Origin: a virus
DNA length: 35,166 bases
IMG/VR virus record: IMGVR_UViG_3300031707_000085
Location: 1-35,166 of that record
Reading direction: 5' to 3' (one strand)
Both the position numbers and the translations under genes were made by a program. A model generated the notes under the pieces. The model did no database searches. It was not told the origin of the DNA and was given only the letters and a program-made list of their open reading frames with translations. Within the stretch, counting starts at the first letter, position 1. Each line of letters starts with the position of its first letter. Of this stretch, positions 17,501 to 33,954 are shown in pieces.

Positions 17501-18347
17501 CATCGGCCTCAACGTAACTCGCGATACCGCCTACTCGCACGTAATCAATGGCGTGGTTGGTAACCGCGGCAGAAGAGATCGGGACACCGTCCACCAACAG
17601 AGAGAGCGAACTACCGGCGTAGACCATGCGGGCACTGTGCCAGTCGCCATCATCATAGTGATCCAACGTAGTAAGGATCGTCGCCCCTGCCTTTGCGCGC
17701 ACGTGTCCTTGGTCAAGTTCAAGAATGTAGCGAGTAATGATCGGAGCACCGATCGTACACAGTTCCACCAACGAACCGGTACTCTCACCGGCCGGATCCT
17801 CGTATGGGCCCTGCCGCTGACTTCTAAACCAGATCTCCGCGGTCCACGTCGACTGCGTCGCAGTGAACACTCCGTAAGCGTGGCTCGTTCCCAGTACCCA
17901 GTTACCGTCGACTCCGTACGCGTCGTATTGTCCAAATCGAAGGAAGACACACTCGTCACCGAAGCCTAGTCCCTCAAAAGCGACCGCATTACCGAACCTG
18001 CCGCAGGACGGGATCAGACGATCTACACGTGGAGCGAACGCAAACTCAGGACCCAACTGATCATTGACAGAATCCGCAGCGTAATCACCCGGGTTCTGCA
18101 CGAGGACAAGACTCAACTGAGTGCCCACAAGATGTTCAAGACCGGCATTCTGCGCCACGTAGTCTGAAGGCGTGTCGGGCATTAAGACTTCGATACCGGC
18201 GTTCTGAGCGACGGAAGCCGAAGGAACAGCAATAGGTGCCAGGACTTCAATGCCGATGTTCTCGTCAATGTAGTCCGAAGGAACGGCAATAGGGGCCAGA
18301 GCCCCAATGCCGATGTTCTCGTTGATGTAGTAACTGACTTCGGCCAC
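14574..18347 (-). CDS. Large tail fibre / receptor-binding tail protein with ReqiPepy6 Gp37-like region
   Basis: This 1257-residue virion protein is modular. Residues 6-80 hold four degenerate repeats of about 19 (Y-x-x-N-x-G-I-x-x-L-x-P). About 95-345 resembles a LamG/concanavalin sandwich (WTAEIWFRSQ, YILELDQGHV, LSLLVDGVPI, TVGLWHFNDG). About 420-560 matches my memory of siphovirus ReqiPepy6 Gp37-like proteins (GVEIRIYDRNNFGTLLAI, LVRVYYDGIERCAFLIEQVD), a tail-tip component. The C-terminal third has fibre-type segments (NTVFAGPA, YRVLVADDLP, HHPAITLD) and a final beta domain that may bind the receptor. The start is GTG at 18347 with GAGG eight bases before it. It follows the distal and minor tail genes, as expected for a host-recognition protein. 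Confidence 0.82.
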   Translation of the reverse strand: MAEVSYYINENIGIGALAPIAVPSDYIDENIGIEVLAPIAVPSASVAQNAGIEVLMPDTPSDYVAQNAGLEHLVGTQLSLVLVQNPGDYAADSVNDQLGPEFAFAPRVDRLIPSCGRFGNAVAFEGLGFGDECVFLRFGQYDAYGVDGNWVLGTSHAYGVFTATQSTWTAEIWFRSQRQGPYEDPAGESTGSLVELCTIGAPIITRYILELDQGHVRAKAGATILTTLDHYDDGDWHSARMVYAGSSLSLLVDGVPISSAAVTNHAIDYVRVGGIASYVEADVREFQIVQANLGTSNYAPAWEYVPNLSTVGLWHFNDGAGATVADFSGNDSDLVLEGDDYNWTDWDFELEVLLNELVCGGPTGVRNRRGIFTVPADAESGQVYVWHTRVHEDVSNSRTFTVLAEEPLRGIGVEIRIYDRNNFGTLLAILENAYGIGISLELDGAGAGAFSLHASDPKATDVNLAHGNLVRVYYDGIERCAFLIEQVDEVVLGEGEESVQTLAITGRGPFALLEGAIVYPPDWPIRDPLLTSYVDKTPGYILADQITKAVARGALLSMTADFTDTVDSNGELWPETFTMDVEPGITVMSLLDQFVTMGYNAYVTSGIKLKVYVSRGIDRTLGQAPTVFRQGYNLYSKTRKSSSASVKTIALVAADTGLSEFATGSSFPRRETFMNATNQDISTAGRAAALALALLSEASEGFDSVVESIYDVSEVFEDFDIGDWVYVDIPGKYDMERFRVRAITMTVEDEGTVTWTVAFNSLYYEWSIRVKRLIDGLSAGSASGSTGSGALNPINPTTGVVIPGKQQFVFGVRIITDDEEAFVVAASDLTEVLVVDTVAKTVALKKLAQIDDEDPNTVFAGPATAPAAPPGYRVLVADDLPVEAVVDSDIAPDEGFLRKTGAGTYTALKSNLDSNADPGVNDDADAGYSVGSVWINITLDKVWQCVDSTNDAAVWKDLGGSAHAEVTLGEGSDPALELDGQELTLADVLTPDEHDDIGDDSPHHPAITLDVGCDPALELAEGQVLNLTLPAAIAPTLAAVMIGRGQWGEITPRQASNSAILIGLYDGATATGTVLIGEDADGIYDKMSSGATSGNEGGWAAGYPVHARRHNSIFIVKLKLVSTALVRGFWGLIDKTLANSCGSDDPAGSYIGLQYSSPRADANWQFVCKDNVTQNIHDTGIAVSTNAVYARFTLNDSVPNILAELLDSNYAVVATYTFIANLPATATGLWPVVGVETQTAALKAWQMYFVRGVNPNV
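18108..18332 (-). repeat. Four degenerate ~19-residue repeats at the tail fibre N-terminus
   Basis: Units begin YINENIGIGALAPIAVPSD, YIDENIGIEVLAPIAVPSA, then VAQNAGIEVLMPDTPSD and YVAQNAGLEHLVG. The first two are close to identical, also in DNA, which suggests recent duplication; the later ones have drifted. Confidence 0.8.
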
Positions 18348-20085: not shown

Positions 20086-23000
20086 TCAAATCCCCAGATG
20101 CGAGAACGTTATCAACCGTCGCCTAATGCTGTCTTCGGCAGCCATCGGTTGCGGGTTATGAATTGTGACGTTGTATGTCTTGCCGCCACCGCCACCCGCT
20201 ACCTGCGGCTGAAGTGCTGACCCACCCTTAAGTCCGCGCAGCCAGTCTGGCGCGCCGACTCGCAGCGGGTCAAGTTGCTTCATTCCCTCGAGGAAGTCAC
20301 TCAAACTATGTTCCCATCCCAACGTTAGTCCGGCGCCCATCATACCGCCGATCCTGGCAAACTTGGTAGACGGCGACGCGGTGCCGGCCGCGTCCTGAGC
20401 CGCCTGGATCGCCGAATCAATGATCTGCCGGATCCTGTCATACAGAGCGCCCTGTTCTGCATCCAATCCGGCGACCACGCCGTCAATCAGCGCCCGGCCG
20501 GTACCTTCTACATAGGACCGAGCCTCGCCGCCAACGGCGTACTGGTACATGCCAGAGGCACAGTACGCTACGACCGCGCCGCCCCACTGACTAGCCTGCC
20601 CGGAGTAACCGGTCATTGCCTGGCCGAGAGTTTGCATCAACGTGTCGGCCGTGTTCTGTCCCTGCGCCGTACCCTCGGTCTGCATCACGCCACCCGTGGT
20701 AGTCACGGTCGCCTTGCCAGCCGCTTCAATTGCGGGCGCCGCCGCGGTAATCGTATCACTGAGTTTGGTGGCCAGCGCATCACCACTCAGTTCGCCCGAC
20801 AGTTCGGCATCGCGGATCAACTTGAGTTGGTCCAACAGTGTCTTGAGGGCGGTGGTTGCCGGTTCTGACTGAGCCCCGAATGATGCGATCAGTTGTTCCA
20901 CGTAGGTAACAGCCGCGTCAGTGCCGCTCTGTCCAGCGACATTACGCACAACGCCCAGACACGCTGACATTTCCTGCACCCAAGCATCGCCCACTGCGCC
21001 CATCTTAGCAAGGGCCTCAGGACCGCCCATCCCGGCAACAAAGGCCTCGAGACACGACTGCGTGGCAGTAAGTACTCCGGGCGTTCCAATCTGAATGCCA
21101 CTCGCCAAAGCAGTTGCTGTATCTGTACCGGCGGCCAACGCGGCCGGTGCGAGCCCACCAAGTCCAGTCGGTCCAGTCCACAAGGCAAGGGCGTTGTTCA
21201 ACTCAGTTTGCAACGCAGGGATCAAGTCCTGCTCGCCGCCAGTAGTCAATACCGCGGCTAGTTCGCCGAACAGTGTCTGAGCCTTAGTAACCGCCGAATC
21301 AGCACCCTTGGTTGCAAACACATCTGCCAACGCCGTGCCGAGATCCTGAGTAAGCGCAGTCGCCACTCCCTTCAAGTCGTCTGGCAACGTACCAAGCGCG
21401 CTCGCGAGATCCCCCAGCAACTTGTTATGATCGGCCAACGATGTCTGCAATGCGTCAAGATCGATGGTCTGACTCTCGTACAGTTTGTTAGCTTCCTCCA
21501 GAAGCGGGTTCAGATAGGTCAACTTACCCTGCGCTGCCGTGATACCATCGACGATCTCCTGGAAGGTGAGTTCCTTGGTGGTACTCAGCATCGCGTCAAT
21601 CTGTCGCTGGGGCTTGTCAAGTGCAAGACTCTCCTCGAGTTGCACGTTCGAAGCCCTCAGACGTAGTTCGGACATCTCGTCACCCAGGGCCTTGATCTGG
21701 TCGTCTAGGTCCTTGGCCTTTTTGCTCTCAGGATCCAGTCCGAGTTTCTGTAGTTCAAGCTTGTTGATCTTGAGTTGAAGGGTATCCATTGACTGGCCCA
21801 GAGCAAAGGTCGCGTCAGAGAACTTCTGCGTACCCACGAGCGGGGCACTGGCAAAGTAGTCCAGACTTCCCTTGGCGGTATCGATGGCCGTCTTGATACC
21901 GGTGATAGACGTGGCGATCGCGTCATGACTCTGTTGCAACACGCCTAGTTTCCAGGTCAGATCCTCAACTACCGTTGTCTCCCACTTGAACGCCTCAGTG
22001 ACCGCCGGCATACCCGCCGCGATCCCGGCACCGACTGCTCCCACAACGCTAGTCCCCGATGCCGTGGCGGCCGCTTCGGCCACGGGCGTCGCCTGCGTGA
22101 CTCCGTCAGAGAGACTGGTCATGAGGTCGGAACCGTCGCTCTGAACCGTACTCATTAGCGGACCCATGGTCATCAGGAGTCCAGCCTCAACCGCCGGCGC
22201 GACACATGCACCTACGTTTTGAGCAGCGTTAACAATGAAGTCCGCAGAGTTCCGGATTCCCTTGTACGCGCCCATCATCATTACGTCGGCACTCTGGTAG
22301 ATTTTAGGAGCACCGGCGCACATTCCGCCGGCGATCTCACCGGCGATCTCACCGCCATACTCATAGGGCACGGACCATGGCAAGTCAATCTTCGCGGGAT
22401 TTGGAATTCCCTTAACGATCCCGCCTATCATGTCTCCTGCCGCGTTGCCGAGCGCACCCGCCCCATCCCTGAGACCCTTGCCAATAAGATCCGGAAATGA
22501 CTTAGCCCACTCTGTGACCCGGGCGATCACGAGATCCTTCTGATTCAAGATGCCCTGCCAGATCAGATCGGGAATTGACTCGCCACGCATGATCAGACCG
22601 GGCGAACCGAACCAACTGCGTGGATCAAGGACACCCAGAATCTGAGGAATAAACGAGCCCGTTAGCCAGCTGTTGAGCGCCGGGAACGCCGCCTGAGCAC
22701 CTTCCCAGAGCATCTGGAGCATATCGAAGCCGCACTGCGTGGGAGTTTTACAGAACCAACCACGGGGGTCAAGTTTGCCCAACAATCCAGGAACAAATGA
22801 CCCGGTCAACCAACTGTTGAGCGCAGGGAAAGCCGACTGCGCACCTTCCCAGATCATCTGTATCAGATCGAAACCACACTCGTTAGGCGTCTTGCAGAAC
22901 CAGCCGCGCGGGTCAAGTTTGCCCAACACGCCGGGAACAAATGAACCGGTCAACCAGCTATTGAGTGCCGGGAACGCCGCCTGCGCGCCTCCCCAGATCA

Positions 23001-29628: not shown

Positions 29629-30246
29629 TTAGGTACTTCTGATCCGCGACTGACAGTATGACCCCAGCAGTTGACGTACCGCCTCGGGTACGCCAGACTC
29701 ACTAGCGTTAACGCTGTATGAGTAGTCACCTAGCCGCTCACTAGACAGACCACTTGTCGCCATTCCGCTTGTCTTGTACATGTGTGCAGCCCAACAAGCA
29801 CAGGCCTCACGCACTGACGCGGGTATCACTCCACTGGCCACATAGGCCACCACTACCCGAACGTAATAACCTGGCTGCCGTTCCACAGTACCACCACCGA
29901 GTCCAACATCGGACTCGTAGCGCGAGTAGATGAGCTGTACCCGACCGCGCTCGAGCATCTGGTAGCCGACGCCTTCAATCACTTCGGAACCGAGTTCCTC
30001 GAGATCAGACGTCAGGTAAGCCGTAATCACCACATCGGTGGGGTTCCTGTCGCGCATGTTGAGAATACTGCCTTGACGCACATTGGTAAACGTCTCGGTC
30101 AGTTCCTCGTCTTCATCAGCGAACGCCAGGCCTGTGTAGTCACGCACTCGCTCCTCAGCAACCTCCAGCCACGAGGCCAGGTCCTCTTCCTTGACAGTAG
30201 GATCCTTGAGCCAGCGCTTTACATCAGCGGTCGTTGCCAGAGGCAT
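29629..30246 (-). CDS. Head-tail connector (adaptor) protein
   Basis: The 205-residue protein starts with ATTADVKRWLKDPTVKEEDLASWLEVAEERVRDYTGLAF, the helical start of the gp6/gp15 adaptor family (xDVxxYL...Y-T-G). Beta strands follow (TDVVITAYLTSDLEELG, GYQMLERGRVQLIYSRY), then YYVRVVVAYVASGVIPASVREACACWAAHMYK and a C-terminal SYSVNASESGVPEAVRQLL, also usual for the family. It joins the portal to the neck proteins. ATG overlaps the previous stop as TAATG. Confidence 0.85.
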   Translation of the reverse strand: MPLATTADVKRWLKDPTVKEEDLASWLEVAEERVRDYTGLAFADEDEELTETFTNVRQGSILNMRDRNPTDVVITAYLTSDLEELGSEVIEGVGYQMLERGRVQLIYSRYESDVGLGGGTVERQPGYYVRVVVAYVASGVIPASVREACACWAAHMYKTSGMATSGLSSERLGDYSYSVNASESGVPEAVRQLLGSYCQSRIRST

Positions 30247-30611
30247 TAGTCCTTACCTTTCGTTTTCTGACCGAGTCTGTGCCCATGATACCGTTCACGG
30301 TGCTGGCGCAGGGCGTCGGCGCTCACAAACGTTGTGGCCGGGCAGTCCTTGACCTTGCACTTGTACTCGTGTTTTTCGGGATTCTTGAGGTCGCGCAACT
30401 CGAGTACGCCCGTCAAGGGGCCATCACCCGAGTAAAACCGCGGTTCTCTTGCGACCTCGTCGACCTCATAAAGCGCAACACCTGGAGGCGCACCTTTGAC
30501 CGCCCTAGTCAACGCATCACTGAAGACAACTGGGTGGACACCCGGCCGGTAGATCTTACCGGCGAATCCCCAGCCCGAGAGTCGGTCGGAGACCTCAAGT
30601 TCCCACGGCAT
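30246..30611 (-). CDS. Head-region protein with C-terminal C2H2 zinc finger
   Basis: The 121-residue protein has an N-terminal part of about 80 residues with strands (GFAGKIYRPG, VHPVVFSD, GVALYEVDEVAREP, GVLELRDLK). It ends in a zinc-finger-like segment: Cys85, Cys90, His104 and His109 (C-x4-C-x13-H-x4-H) within EYKCKVKDCPATTFVSADALRQHRERYHG. It is placed between the repeat protein and the connector. It may bind DNA or the capsid; no homologue comes to mind. Confidence 0.7.
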   Translation of the reverse strand: MPWELEVSDRLSGWGFAGKIYRPGVHPVVFSDALTRAVKGAPPGVALYEVDEVAREPRFYSGDGPLTGVLELRDLKNPEKHEYKCKVKDCPATTFVSADALRQHRERYHGHRLGQKTKGKD

Positions 30612-30696: not shown

Positions 30697-31359
30697 TTAC
30701 CAGCCCCCGCCACCGGTGTAGTGTTCAAACGGAACTCGCAGTGCCGCAAACGAGAGCTGCAACCTGCGAGGTGTGTCCAACGGCGTCTGCAATACGGCCC
30801 ATGACATCATGAGTCGACGCGGCGCGGTCGGAACCTCGAACTCGCCCTGAGAAACCTGAGCGGCCCGTCCAGCACTAGGAGTCTCCAGTTCTACCCAGGA
30901 TGACTGTAGCCTACGCTGTTCAGTCGGGACCTGCATTTCAACCCAGGACGCCTGAAGTTTGCGTTGACCGGTTGGCGTCTCCAACTCGGTCCACGACAAC
31001 TGAAGTGCATACTGTGCCGGCGGACTCTCCAACTCGGCCCACGATAGACCAAGCTGACGAGGCGCCGTCGGAACCTGCATCTCAGCCCAAGACGCCTGCA
31101 ACTGGCGCGGTACGGTCGGAACCTCGAGTTCTGCCCATGACGCCTGCAAGGCGTACTGAGCGTCAGGAACTTCTAGTTCCGCCCAGGATGACTGAAGTTG
31201 ACGTTGCTCAGATGTGACCTCGAGTTCCGCCCAGGACGCCTGGAGGTTGCGCTGTGCTGTCGGTGCTTCTAGTTCTGCCCATGACAACTGGAGCGCATAC
31301 TGGGCGTCTGGGGCCTCGAGTTCTGCCCACGAAAGCCGAAACTCACAGGGATGCCCCAT
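30697..31359 (-). CDS. 16-residue tandem-repeat virion protein (SWAELE repeats)
   Basis: The 220-residue protein is almost wholly made of 13 tandem units of 16 residues (one of 17) with consensus LSWAELExPxxxRxLQ. The conserved Trp falls at 11, 27, 43, 59, 75, 91, 107, 123, 139, 155 and 187; units 11 and 13 have Gln and Phe there instead. The alternation of Trp, Glu and hydrophobic residues suggests one beta strand plus a Pro-containing turn per unit, as in a beta-solenoid, propeller or fibre. The end is FEHYTGGGGW. A strong AAGGAGG precedes the ATG. It is in the head-completion area, so it is probably a capsid or neck appendage; no function is known to me. Confidence 0.85.
   Translation of the reverse strand: MGHPCEFRLSWAELEAPDAQYALQLSWAELEAPTAQRNLQASWAELEVTSEQRQLQSSWAELEVPDAQYALQASWAELEVPTVPRQLQASWAEMQVPTAPRQLGLSWAELESPPAQYALQLSWTELETPTGQRKLQASWVEMQVPTEQRRLQSSWVELETPSAGRAAQVSQGEFEVPTAPRRLMMSWAVLQTPLDTPRRLQLSFAALRVPFEHYTGGGGW
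30712..31335 (-). repeat. Thirteen tandem 48-base coding repeats
   Basis: Each unit of the SWAELE array is 48 bases (one of 51). Units differ at both silent and amino-acid-changing sites, so the array is old rather than a fresh duplication. Some pairs (starting SWAELEVPDAQYALQ) are closer, which suggests later shuffling among units. Confidence 0.88.
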
Positions 31360-31371
31360 AATGAGGCCTCC

Positions 31372-31836
31372 TTATGCCAGCGCCTGAGATGCAACGATCC
31401 GCAGGTAGAGGTTGGTGTAGTCGGTGATGTCCCCAGCCTCGCCCACAGTAAGTTCGATCTCCTTGGTCGTCCAACCGTTGGCGACGTCTTCGTACGTGCG
31501 AGTAGCGATCAACGTTCCGGGACCAGTTCCCTCCCCCGGCTCTCCCTCGTCGAAGTAGTCCTGACGAAGTTCAACGTCGCAATCGATAGTGGATCCACCA
31601 GCGAGTTCCTTCTGGATCCGAACGCGCAGGACGTGACCAGTGTTGATCACCGGGTCCTCGAGCGTGGTCAACTTCGTGACGTAGACCGAGGCATCTGGCG
31701 CTTCCTCGCTCGTGATGAAATCCTGGTCGTCGAGTACCACCTCATTGATGGCCTCGAAGATGTCCACGTCAAGTCCGTCATCATCAGTCCAGGCACCGAG
31801 CGTGGTGTCGGCAGATGGGCGTGCAAACTGTGGCAT
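31372..31836 (-). CDS. Beta-sandwich virion-associated protein
   Basis: The 154-residue protein starts FARPSADTTLGAWTDDDGLDVDIFEAINEVVLDDQDFITS. That pattern, an RPSaDt-GxWt start followed by a DDxDfI piece, is common in phage virion proteins. HVLRVRIQKELAGGSTIDCDVELRQ and TNLYLRIVAS complete a sandwich. It stands after the major capsid gene cluster. A decoration or head fibre role is possible. AAGGAGA precedes the ATG. Confidence 0.72.
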   Translation of the reverse strand: MPQFARPSADTTLGAWTDDDGLDVDIFEAINEVVLDDQDFITSEEAPDASVYVTKLTTLEDPVINTGHVLRVRIQKELAGGSTIDCDVELRQDYFDEGEPGEGTGPGTLIATRTYEDVANGWTTKEIELTVGEAGDITDYTNLYLRIVASQALA

Positions 31837-32967: not shown

Positions 32968-33954
32968 CTACGCAGCAACGAGAACGTTGTAGGCGAGGGC
33001 CGTTGCCGGTAGGTGTTCCACCTTGGCGTCCACGCGGCAAGTGACGATGTAACTCGTCTGGCCTTCACGTGGGTCGCGGAAGGACTCGAACTTGACCATC
33101 CGGCGGTAGCCAGCCATCAGGTTGAGGCGGTGGCATAGCAGGATGAAACTCGTCTCGTCGTCCTTGACGTTCATGATGGGAACCGCCATGATGGGGATGC
33201 CCTGGTACTTAACGGGCCGGTCGCCCTCCAGCATCAGGTCACCCAGCGGGGTGCCACGGGCGGTCAGGGAGTCGCGGTACTTCTCGTCCAGCCGAGACGG
33301 AACGTAGAACCGCATGTTGGGCTTGTCCTTCTTGAAGCGGTCGGGGATGGCCTGGAGCATCTTGGCAAAGATGACCTGGAAGTCCTGGCCGTCAGGCTCG
33401 GCGTCGTAAGAAGTAGAACCAGCGTCGTCGTAGGCCTGCTTGATCCAGCCGTCCAACAGGTTCATGTAGTCGGAGTCATCGTGGCCGACGATGTCGTTGT
33501 TGATGTCGCCGTTGAGGAAGAGTTCCTCGAGGTCACGGCCCACGCGCTGAGCGATCATTGTCTGAAGGGTACCGGAGAAACCGGCCCGCTCGACATTGTC
33601 CTCGAGCACCTCGTCCGTGATGGGGACCTCACCGCGAACCAGCACCGTCGACATCTCGACAACGCCAGTTACCGGCTTGGAACGGTCGCCCGACTCCAGA
33701 CGCGCGCCTTCAATACCCGGGCGCAGAACACGGCTGGAGAAGTCTAGCTTTGATTCCTGCCACTTGTTGGCAGCGTTCATGACGGTCCGCACGTCGGGCA
33801 GGATGATCTGGGCGTCGATGGCCACCTGGTAGAAGACCGCCACCTGTTCGATGGTGAGCGGTGCCCCGCCGGTGTCGCCAAACTCGGCCGTGGTCAGAGT
33901 TCCCGTGGTATCCCCAACTGCCTTCCGCAGAAGTTCTTCGTTACTGAGTCCCAT
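32968..33954 (-). CDS. Major capsid protein (HK97-fold)
   Basis: The 328-residue protein has the capsid pattern: an N-terminal arm region (ELLRKAVGDTTGTLTTAEFGDTGGAPL), E-loop and spine-helix blocks (SKPVTGVVEMSTVLVRGEVPITDEVLEDN, LQTMIAQRVGRDLEELFLNGD), the P-domain (MRFYVPSRLDEKYRDSLTARGTPLGDLMLEGDRPVKYQGIPIMAVP) and a closing LMAGYRRMVKFESFRDPREGQTSYIVTCRVDAKV. It builds the icosahedral shell. The scaffold-like gene stands just upstream, and a strong AGGGAGGA is present. Confidence 0.92.
   Translation of the reverse strand: MGLSNEELLRKAVGDTTGTLTTAEFGDTGGAPLTIEQVAVFYQVAIDAQIILPDVRTVMNAANKWQESKLDFSSRVLRPGIEGARLESGDRSKPVTGVVEMSTVLVRGEVPITDEVLEDNVERAGFSGTLQTMIAQRVGRDLEELFLNGDINNDIVGHDDSDYMNLLDGWIKQAYDDAGSTSYDAEPDGQDFQVIFAKMLQAIPDRFKKDKPNMRFYVPSRLDEKYRDSLTARGTPLGDLMLEGDRPVKYQGIPIMAVPIMNVKDDETSFILLCHRLNLMAGYRRMVKFESFRDPREGQTSYIVTCRVDAKVEHLPATALAYNVLVAA

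Follow-up and report, generated by a model that had tools for sequence, protein, structure and literature searches.

The tandem repeat protein analyzed here very probably acts as a polyvalent donor strand, each unit of which completes one molecule of the jelly-roll protein encoded next to it. The window, that is, the whole stretch of DNA that was analyzed (35,166 nucleotides), comprises an entire IMG/VR record and derives from a long-tailed phage with recognizable genes for the capsid protein, head-tail adaptor, major tail protein, tape measure, and DnaB. The proposed donor-strand array protein is encoded on the minus strand (30697..31359) between the genes for the major capsid protein (phrog_1623; 32968..33954, minus strand) and the head-tail adaptor (phrog_442; 29629..30246, minus strand), both assigned by PHROG matches. 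This position agrees with the virion-region location given in a preliminary description of the sequence. Directly upstream of the array gene lies the gene for the proposed acceptor protein (31372..31836, minus strand), and the gap between the acceptor stop and the array start (31360..31371, minus strand) contains the ribosome-binding site of the array, AGGAGG. A small protein encoded beside the array (30246-30611, minus strand) carries a C2H2 zinc-finger-like segment (CKVKDCPATTFVSADALRQHRERYH) with a weak Pfam match. Tandem repeats were also observed in the tape-measure gene (144 bp, 2.5 copies; 22645-23000) and in the gene of a 1257-aa protein (57 bp, 2 copies; 18218-18331).

The array protein has 220 amino acids, for which open reading frame and repeat analyses revealed 13 units of 16 residues. 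Twelve core motifs follow one another at an exact spacing of 16 residues, and the thirteenth (SFAALRVP) lies 17 residues further on. At a lag of 16, 97 residues were identical, as compared to a maximum of 34 at any lag in 2000 shuffled sequences, which bears out the earlier statement that 13 tandem 16-residue units extend over nearly the whole protein. The almost constant SWAELE core reported at the same time was confirmed for units 1-10 (30868..31347, minus strand; residues 5-164), which keep S-W-x-E-[LM]-[EQ], but not for units 11-13 (30721..30867, minus strand; residues 165-213), whose cores are degenerate (SQGEFE, SWAVLQ, and SFAALR). The C-terminal tail that follows unit 13 reads YTGGGGW. 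Each unit consists of a strand of about 10 residues (x-V-S-W-A-E-L-E-V) and a Pro-rich linker of about 6 residues. Identity between the copies amounted to 69% at the first, 78% at the second, and 44% at the third codon position, and the same codon was used at only 37% of the residues shared between units (M and W left out). Since the third positions are less alike and so few codons are the same, the amino acids of the array are kept by selection at the protein level. The TRF program found 68% matches on the array DNA. The array copies are old and do not represent a recent DNA expansion.

The array could not be assigned to any Pfam, PHROG, or PDB family, in line with the initial impression of an unrecognized family. 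The Pfam and PHROG matches of the array and its relatives were weak or repeat-driven, and phrog_32896 was also matched in control genomes. Sequence matches of the array in the PDB were chance hits to keratin, and the array profile gave none. A match to the GenBank phage LR756508 was rejected as a different acidic repeat protein. The protein concerned (L008:5191-9930 in LR756508.1) has 1579 amino acids, is encoded in a phage genome of 484 kb, and carries in its N-terminal half an acidic repeat of about 16 residues (VPEEDEVFDHT...) with a superficial likeness to that of the window. Scans of genome contigs yielded no confirmed relatives of the array, and no array was found among the pattern-scan matches listed. 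Other viral contigs contained relatives, some of them stand-alone proteins of about 100-230 amino acids and others arrays within large fiber-like proteins (L001, L003, and L005). In L003, the arrays flank a segment that resembles, by eye, a right-handed beta-helix of the pectate-lyase type. The number of units varied from 4 to about 20, as had been anticipated for related phages. From 225 two-unit stretches we derived the consensus R-R-A-x-[VI]-S-[WF]-A-E-[LF]-E-[VI]-P-x-A-P, with E at position +2 in 99-100% of the units and W or F at position 0. Most of the relatives are contig fragments.

When all proteins of the window were compared with the relatives' loci, only the acceptor accompanied the arrays at the majority of these loci. 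Many of the loci that had been fetched by a single WAE[LF]EVP match contained no array; there, the match was located just past the end of an acceptor homologue. The acceptor thus occurs in two forms. At array loci it ends with ...LYLRFVANQ[VP]* (strandless form), whereas at array-less loci the domain continues in cis with one segment, ...ITDYADLRLRFTAN-(loop)-xVTWAELEVPD... (cis form), in which the loop before the xVSWAE[LF]EVP strand is short and often Gly-rich. The acceptor of the window, with 154 amino acids and the terminus ...TNLYLRIVASQALA*, is a strandless form. Alignment of the two forms showed that it is without a strand found in complete homologues, and this strand is the last one in the modeled cis fold. 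GenBank phages gave no match to the acceptor family. The cis acceptors of L034, L047, L049, L050, L054, L061, and L074 often run into quite different tandem repeats (e.g., FAGQSNGIAVVTAPYIRRDVP, SPSASLSPSAS, and ADAIVxKGVSDSVTADS), which may be donor arrays or fibers for other partners.

For structural information on the acceptor, a cis form (L022:9671-10141) was modeled with AlphaFold2 on the basis of a 42-row alignment. The model showed eight main strands with a mean pLDDT of 96.2 and a pTM of 0.91. Its last strand (residues 142-151, ATVTWAELEV) corresponds to the repeat core. The closest solved folds were jelly rolls resembling CBM4, CBM16, and CBM35, with a VIA Z of about 10 over residues 1-152 including the last strand; pilins were not among the matches listed. 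At the sequence level, the acceptor had no match in the PDB. Judged by this homologue, the window acceptor would have a jelly-roll domain from which the last strand is missing. Jelly rolls with the canonical strand order (B-I-D-G / C-H-E-F) have their last strand in the middle of a sheet; a chain made without it would therefore be expected to have an open groove.

The preliminary description had considered that the array itself forms a regular beta structure. Modeled alone as a monomer with AlphaFold2, the array reached a pLDDT of 57, and most of its units appeared as a single strand of 10 residues with a turn of 6 residues after it. This low-confidence model shows one beta-strand per unit, and the strand-plus-turn pattern would be as expected for separate donor strands. 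A comparison of the model with solved structures by Foldseek gave no convincing match; fold matches to GlmU, hemolysin, and similar proteins were judged meaningless. A self-contained solenoid or propeller, as once envisaged, found no support. The comparison of relatives points instead to each unit as the last strand missing from the jelly roll of another protein, and a fiber may still be formed, but as a two-component assembly.

These data bear on the better of two alternative explanations, namely that the array folds by itself, e.g., as a homotrimeric fiber shaft similar to a triple beta-spiral or as a beta-solenoid, and that the neighbor is an unrelated head protein. Repeats of 15-16 residues that have a conserved Pro in the turn occur in viral fiber shafts, a period that the 16-residue unit fits, and both the occurrence of arrays inside large fiber-like proteins and the single strand per unit would suit such a shaft. 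The poor pLDDT and the Foldseek result speak against self-folding, though a monomer model is no basis for judging homotrimers. Moreover, self-folding leaves unexplained why the unit equals the last strand of the neighbor in cis when the array is absent, and why the neighbor in phages with an array is without precisely that strand. We therefore consider this explanation very unlikely.

For the association between the array and the strandless form, the loci were re-collected by means of a peptide located in another part of the acceptor domain, so that neither the array nor the strand was used for selection. The resulting 80 loci were merged with the pattern-found loci and dereplicated, at least 3 kb of downstream sequence was required, and units were detected by an HMM search. 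An array of at least three units was present near 42 of the 55 strandless forms and near none of the 13 cis forms (Fisher's exact test, p = 3.3e-7). Both forms are clustered on the tree, and the Fisher p therefore overstates the evidence. Restricted to well-supported branches, the tree gave one independent contrast, as compared to five on the best tree; none was discordant, and their number is too small for a significant sign test. Several of the other 13 strandless loci carried one or two donor-like units nearby or were located on contigs that end as the array begins. Among the array contigs without a complete acceptor, some carry the strandless 3' end of its gene at their edge. In five further loci, the acceptor domain runs on without a recognizable strand motif. 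No clear donor, even with the profile, was detected in at least five strandless loci (L235, L252, L255, L258, and L267), and no acceptor was detectable on the array contigs L057 (26 kb) and L051 (35 kb). Charge complementarity between donor and acceptor was weak in an analysis uncorrected for phylogeny.

The array and the acceptor were linked in different genomic contexts. In addition to the arrangement in the window, the pair was found after the portal gene (L203), between the portal and capsid genes (L198), and near a tail gene (L251). This linkage agrees better with a pair of components of a single device than with two capsid genes that adjoin by chance. Both the linkage and the conservation of donor residues despite nearly saturated synonymous sites are what a continued pairing of array and acceptor would predict. 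The same two observations make it still less probable that the strandless neighbor completes itself, by a segment of its own or by swapping between copies, and that an array born from duplications of the lost strand serves another role or partner, even though the few strandless loci without a visible donor, the few array contigs without a visible acceptor, and the low number of independent contrasts would be compatible with it.

According to the donor-strand model, the acceptor jelly roll would be made without its final, eighth strand, and each strand of the array would insert as the eighth strand of one acceptor copy. The Pro-rich linker of about 6 residues would span the gap to the next acceptor. 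With one array chain as template, up to about 13 jelly rolls could be lined up, and the unit number of the gene would set the number of beads. Assuming that each unit, when extended, lengthens the chain by no more than about 5 nm, we estimate that a string of 13 beads would be up to roughly 60-70 nm long. Arrays inside larger proteins would decorate fiber arms. We infer the insertion of the units in trans from sequence and structure prediction, and we also infer the stoichiometry, the surface location, and the binding of glycans. Because the acceptor fold resembles carbohydrate-binding modules, the virion most likely carries the assembly as a flexible multivalent arm, in this phage on the head or neck. 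Its likeliest use is possibly multivalent, weak glycan binding, although a shared fold shows no function.

Repeats of the type RVSQxxVEVL, which we suspected to behave like the SWAELEVP arrays, were searched for accordingly. The unit of these arrays has 17-18 residues. In all ten array-bearing loci examined (L276, L285, L299, L304, L317, L344, L346, L352, L375, and L376), the array was directly preceded by, or close to, a gene of one family whose proteins have about 335-440 amino acids, phrog_2448 (FDHY), a PHROG of unknown function. Its C-terminal domain aligned with the window acceptor in hhalign with a probability of 92.8 and an E value of 4.1e-7 over 82 columns, a remote similarity confined to the first half of the domain. 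Six additional phrog_2448 loci were identified independently of the repeat, and about four of these had RVSQ units nearby. The phiCbK-like Caulobacter phages contain the pair as well: in CcrKarma, the small protein gp103 with three RVSQ units is encoded directly before the phrog_2448-like gp104 (L394:4523-5822). The published proteome table of phiCbK contains eight virion proteins, and both the 70-aa repeat protein and the phrog_2448 protein are absent from it (PMC3556154). A sequence search of phrog_2448 proteins against solved structures gave no match. Chi-like phages such as Salmonella phage SD-13_S19 (Casjensviridae; L393:3789-5801) encode two successive phrog_2448-like proteins, and no recognizable RVSQ donors were seen in the neighboring gene that was read. 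Like the pair in the window, the phrog_2448/RVSQ pair thus combines a domain remotely homologous to the acceptor with adjoining tandem short strand-like units. It differs in the length and sequence of the unit, in an extra N-terminal domain of about 200 amino acids, and in that no cis form was found. Judging from adjacency and remote similarity, RVSQ/phrog_2448 is likely a parallel donor-strand system.

Taking both systems together, we lean towards a general principle in tailed phages, apparently undescribed before, by which a gene-encoded string of donor strands would template the orderly joining of an exact number of split beta-sandwich subunits, so that the repeat number would determine fiber length or valency. 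At least two systems that are remotely related to each other, SWAELEVP and RVSQxxVEVL, would rely on this principle, and the model phage phiCbK has one of them. If correct, it would explain a class of puzzling short-repeat virion proteins without a domain of their own, and phages could evolve their valency simply by gaining or losing a 48-base unit. The idea is directly testable, given two small genes and the phrog_2448/RVSQ counterpart in cultured Caulobacter phages, and the array and acceptor parts could serve as a modular display scaffold.

Donor-strand complementation and exchange have been described for chaperone-usher pili, including type 1, P, and archaic CupE pili (PMC10104325), and for TasA fibers (PMC9674648). 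The literature searched, with most subscription journals outside its coverage, contained no report of a donor strand or such a repeat array in phages. Our model would extend this type of complementation from pili and biofilm fibers to phage appendages, in a polyvalent and templated version. As in pili and TasA, sequence and model point to a beta-sandwich subunit that is short of one strand and would be completed by the strand of another polypeptide, resulting in beads joined in a fiber. In those systems, however, each subunit combines an acceptor with one donor strand, whereas here a separate, domain-less protein contains the donors in concatenated form and the length would be set by the gene. 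Furthermore, chaperone-usher pilins are Ig-like, while for the acceptor a CBM-like jelly roll is predicted. The predicted fold of the complete acceptor is shared with CBM4, CBM16, CBM35, and galactose-binding-like jelly rolls, but carbohydrate-binding modules are complete single chains. Cellulosome scaffoldins likewise recruit many partner copies by one chain of tandem units, through cohesin-dockerin pairs, and their units are folded domains. The array would share with them a valency set by the unit number, yet its unit would be a single strand that completes the fold of the partner.
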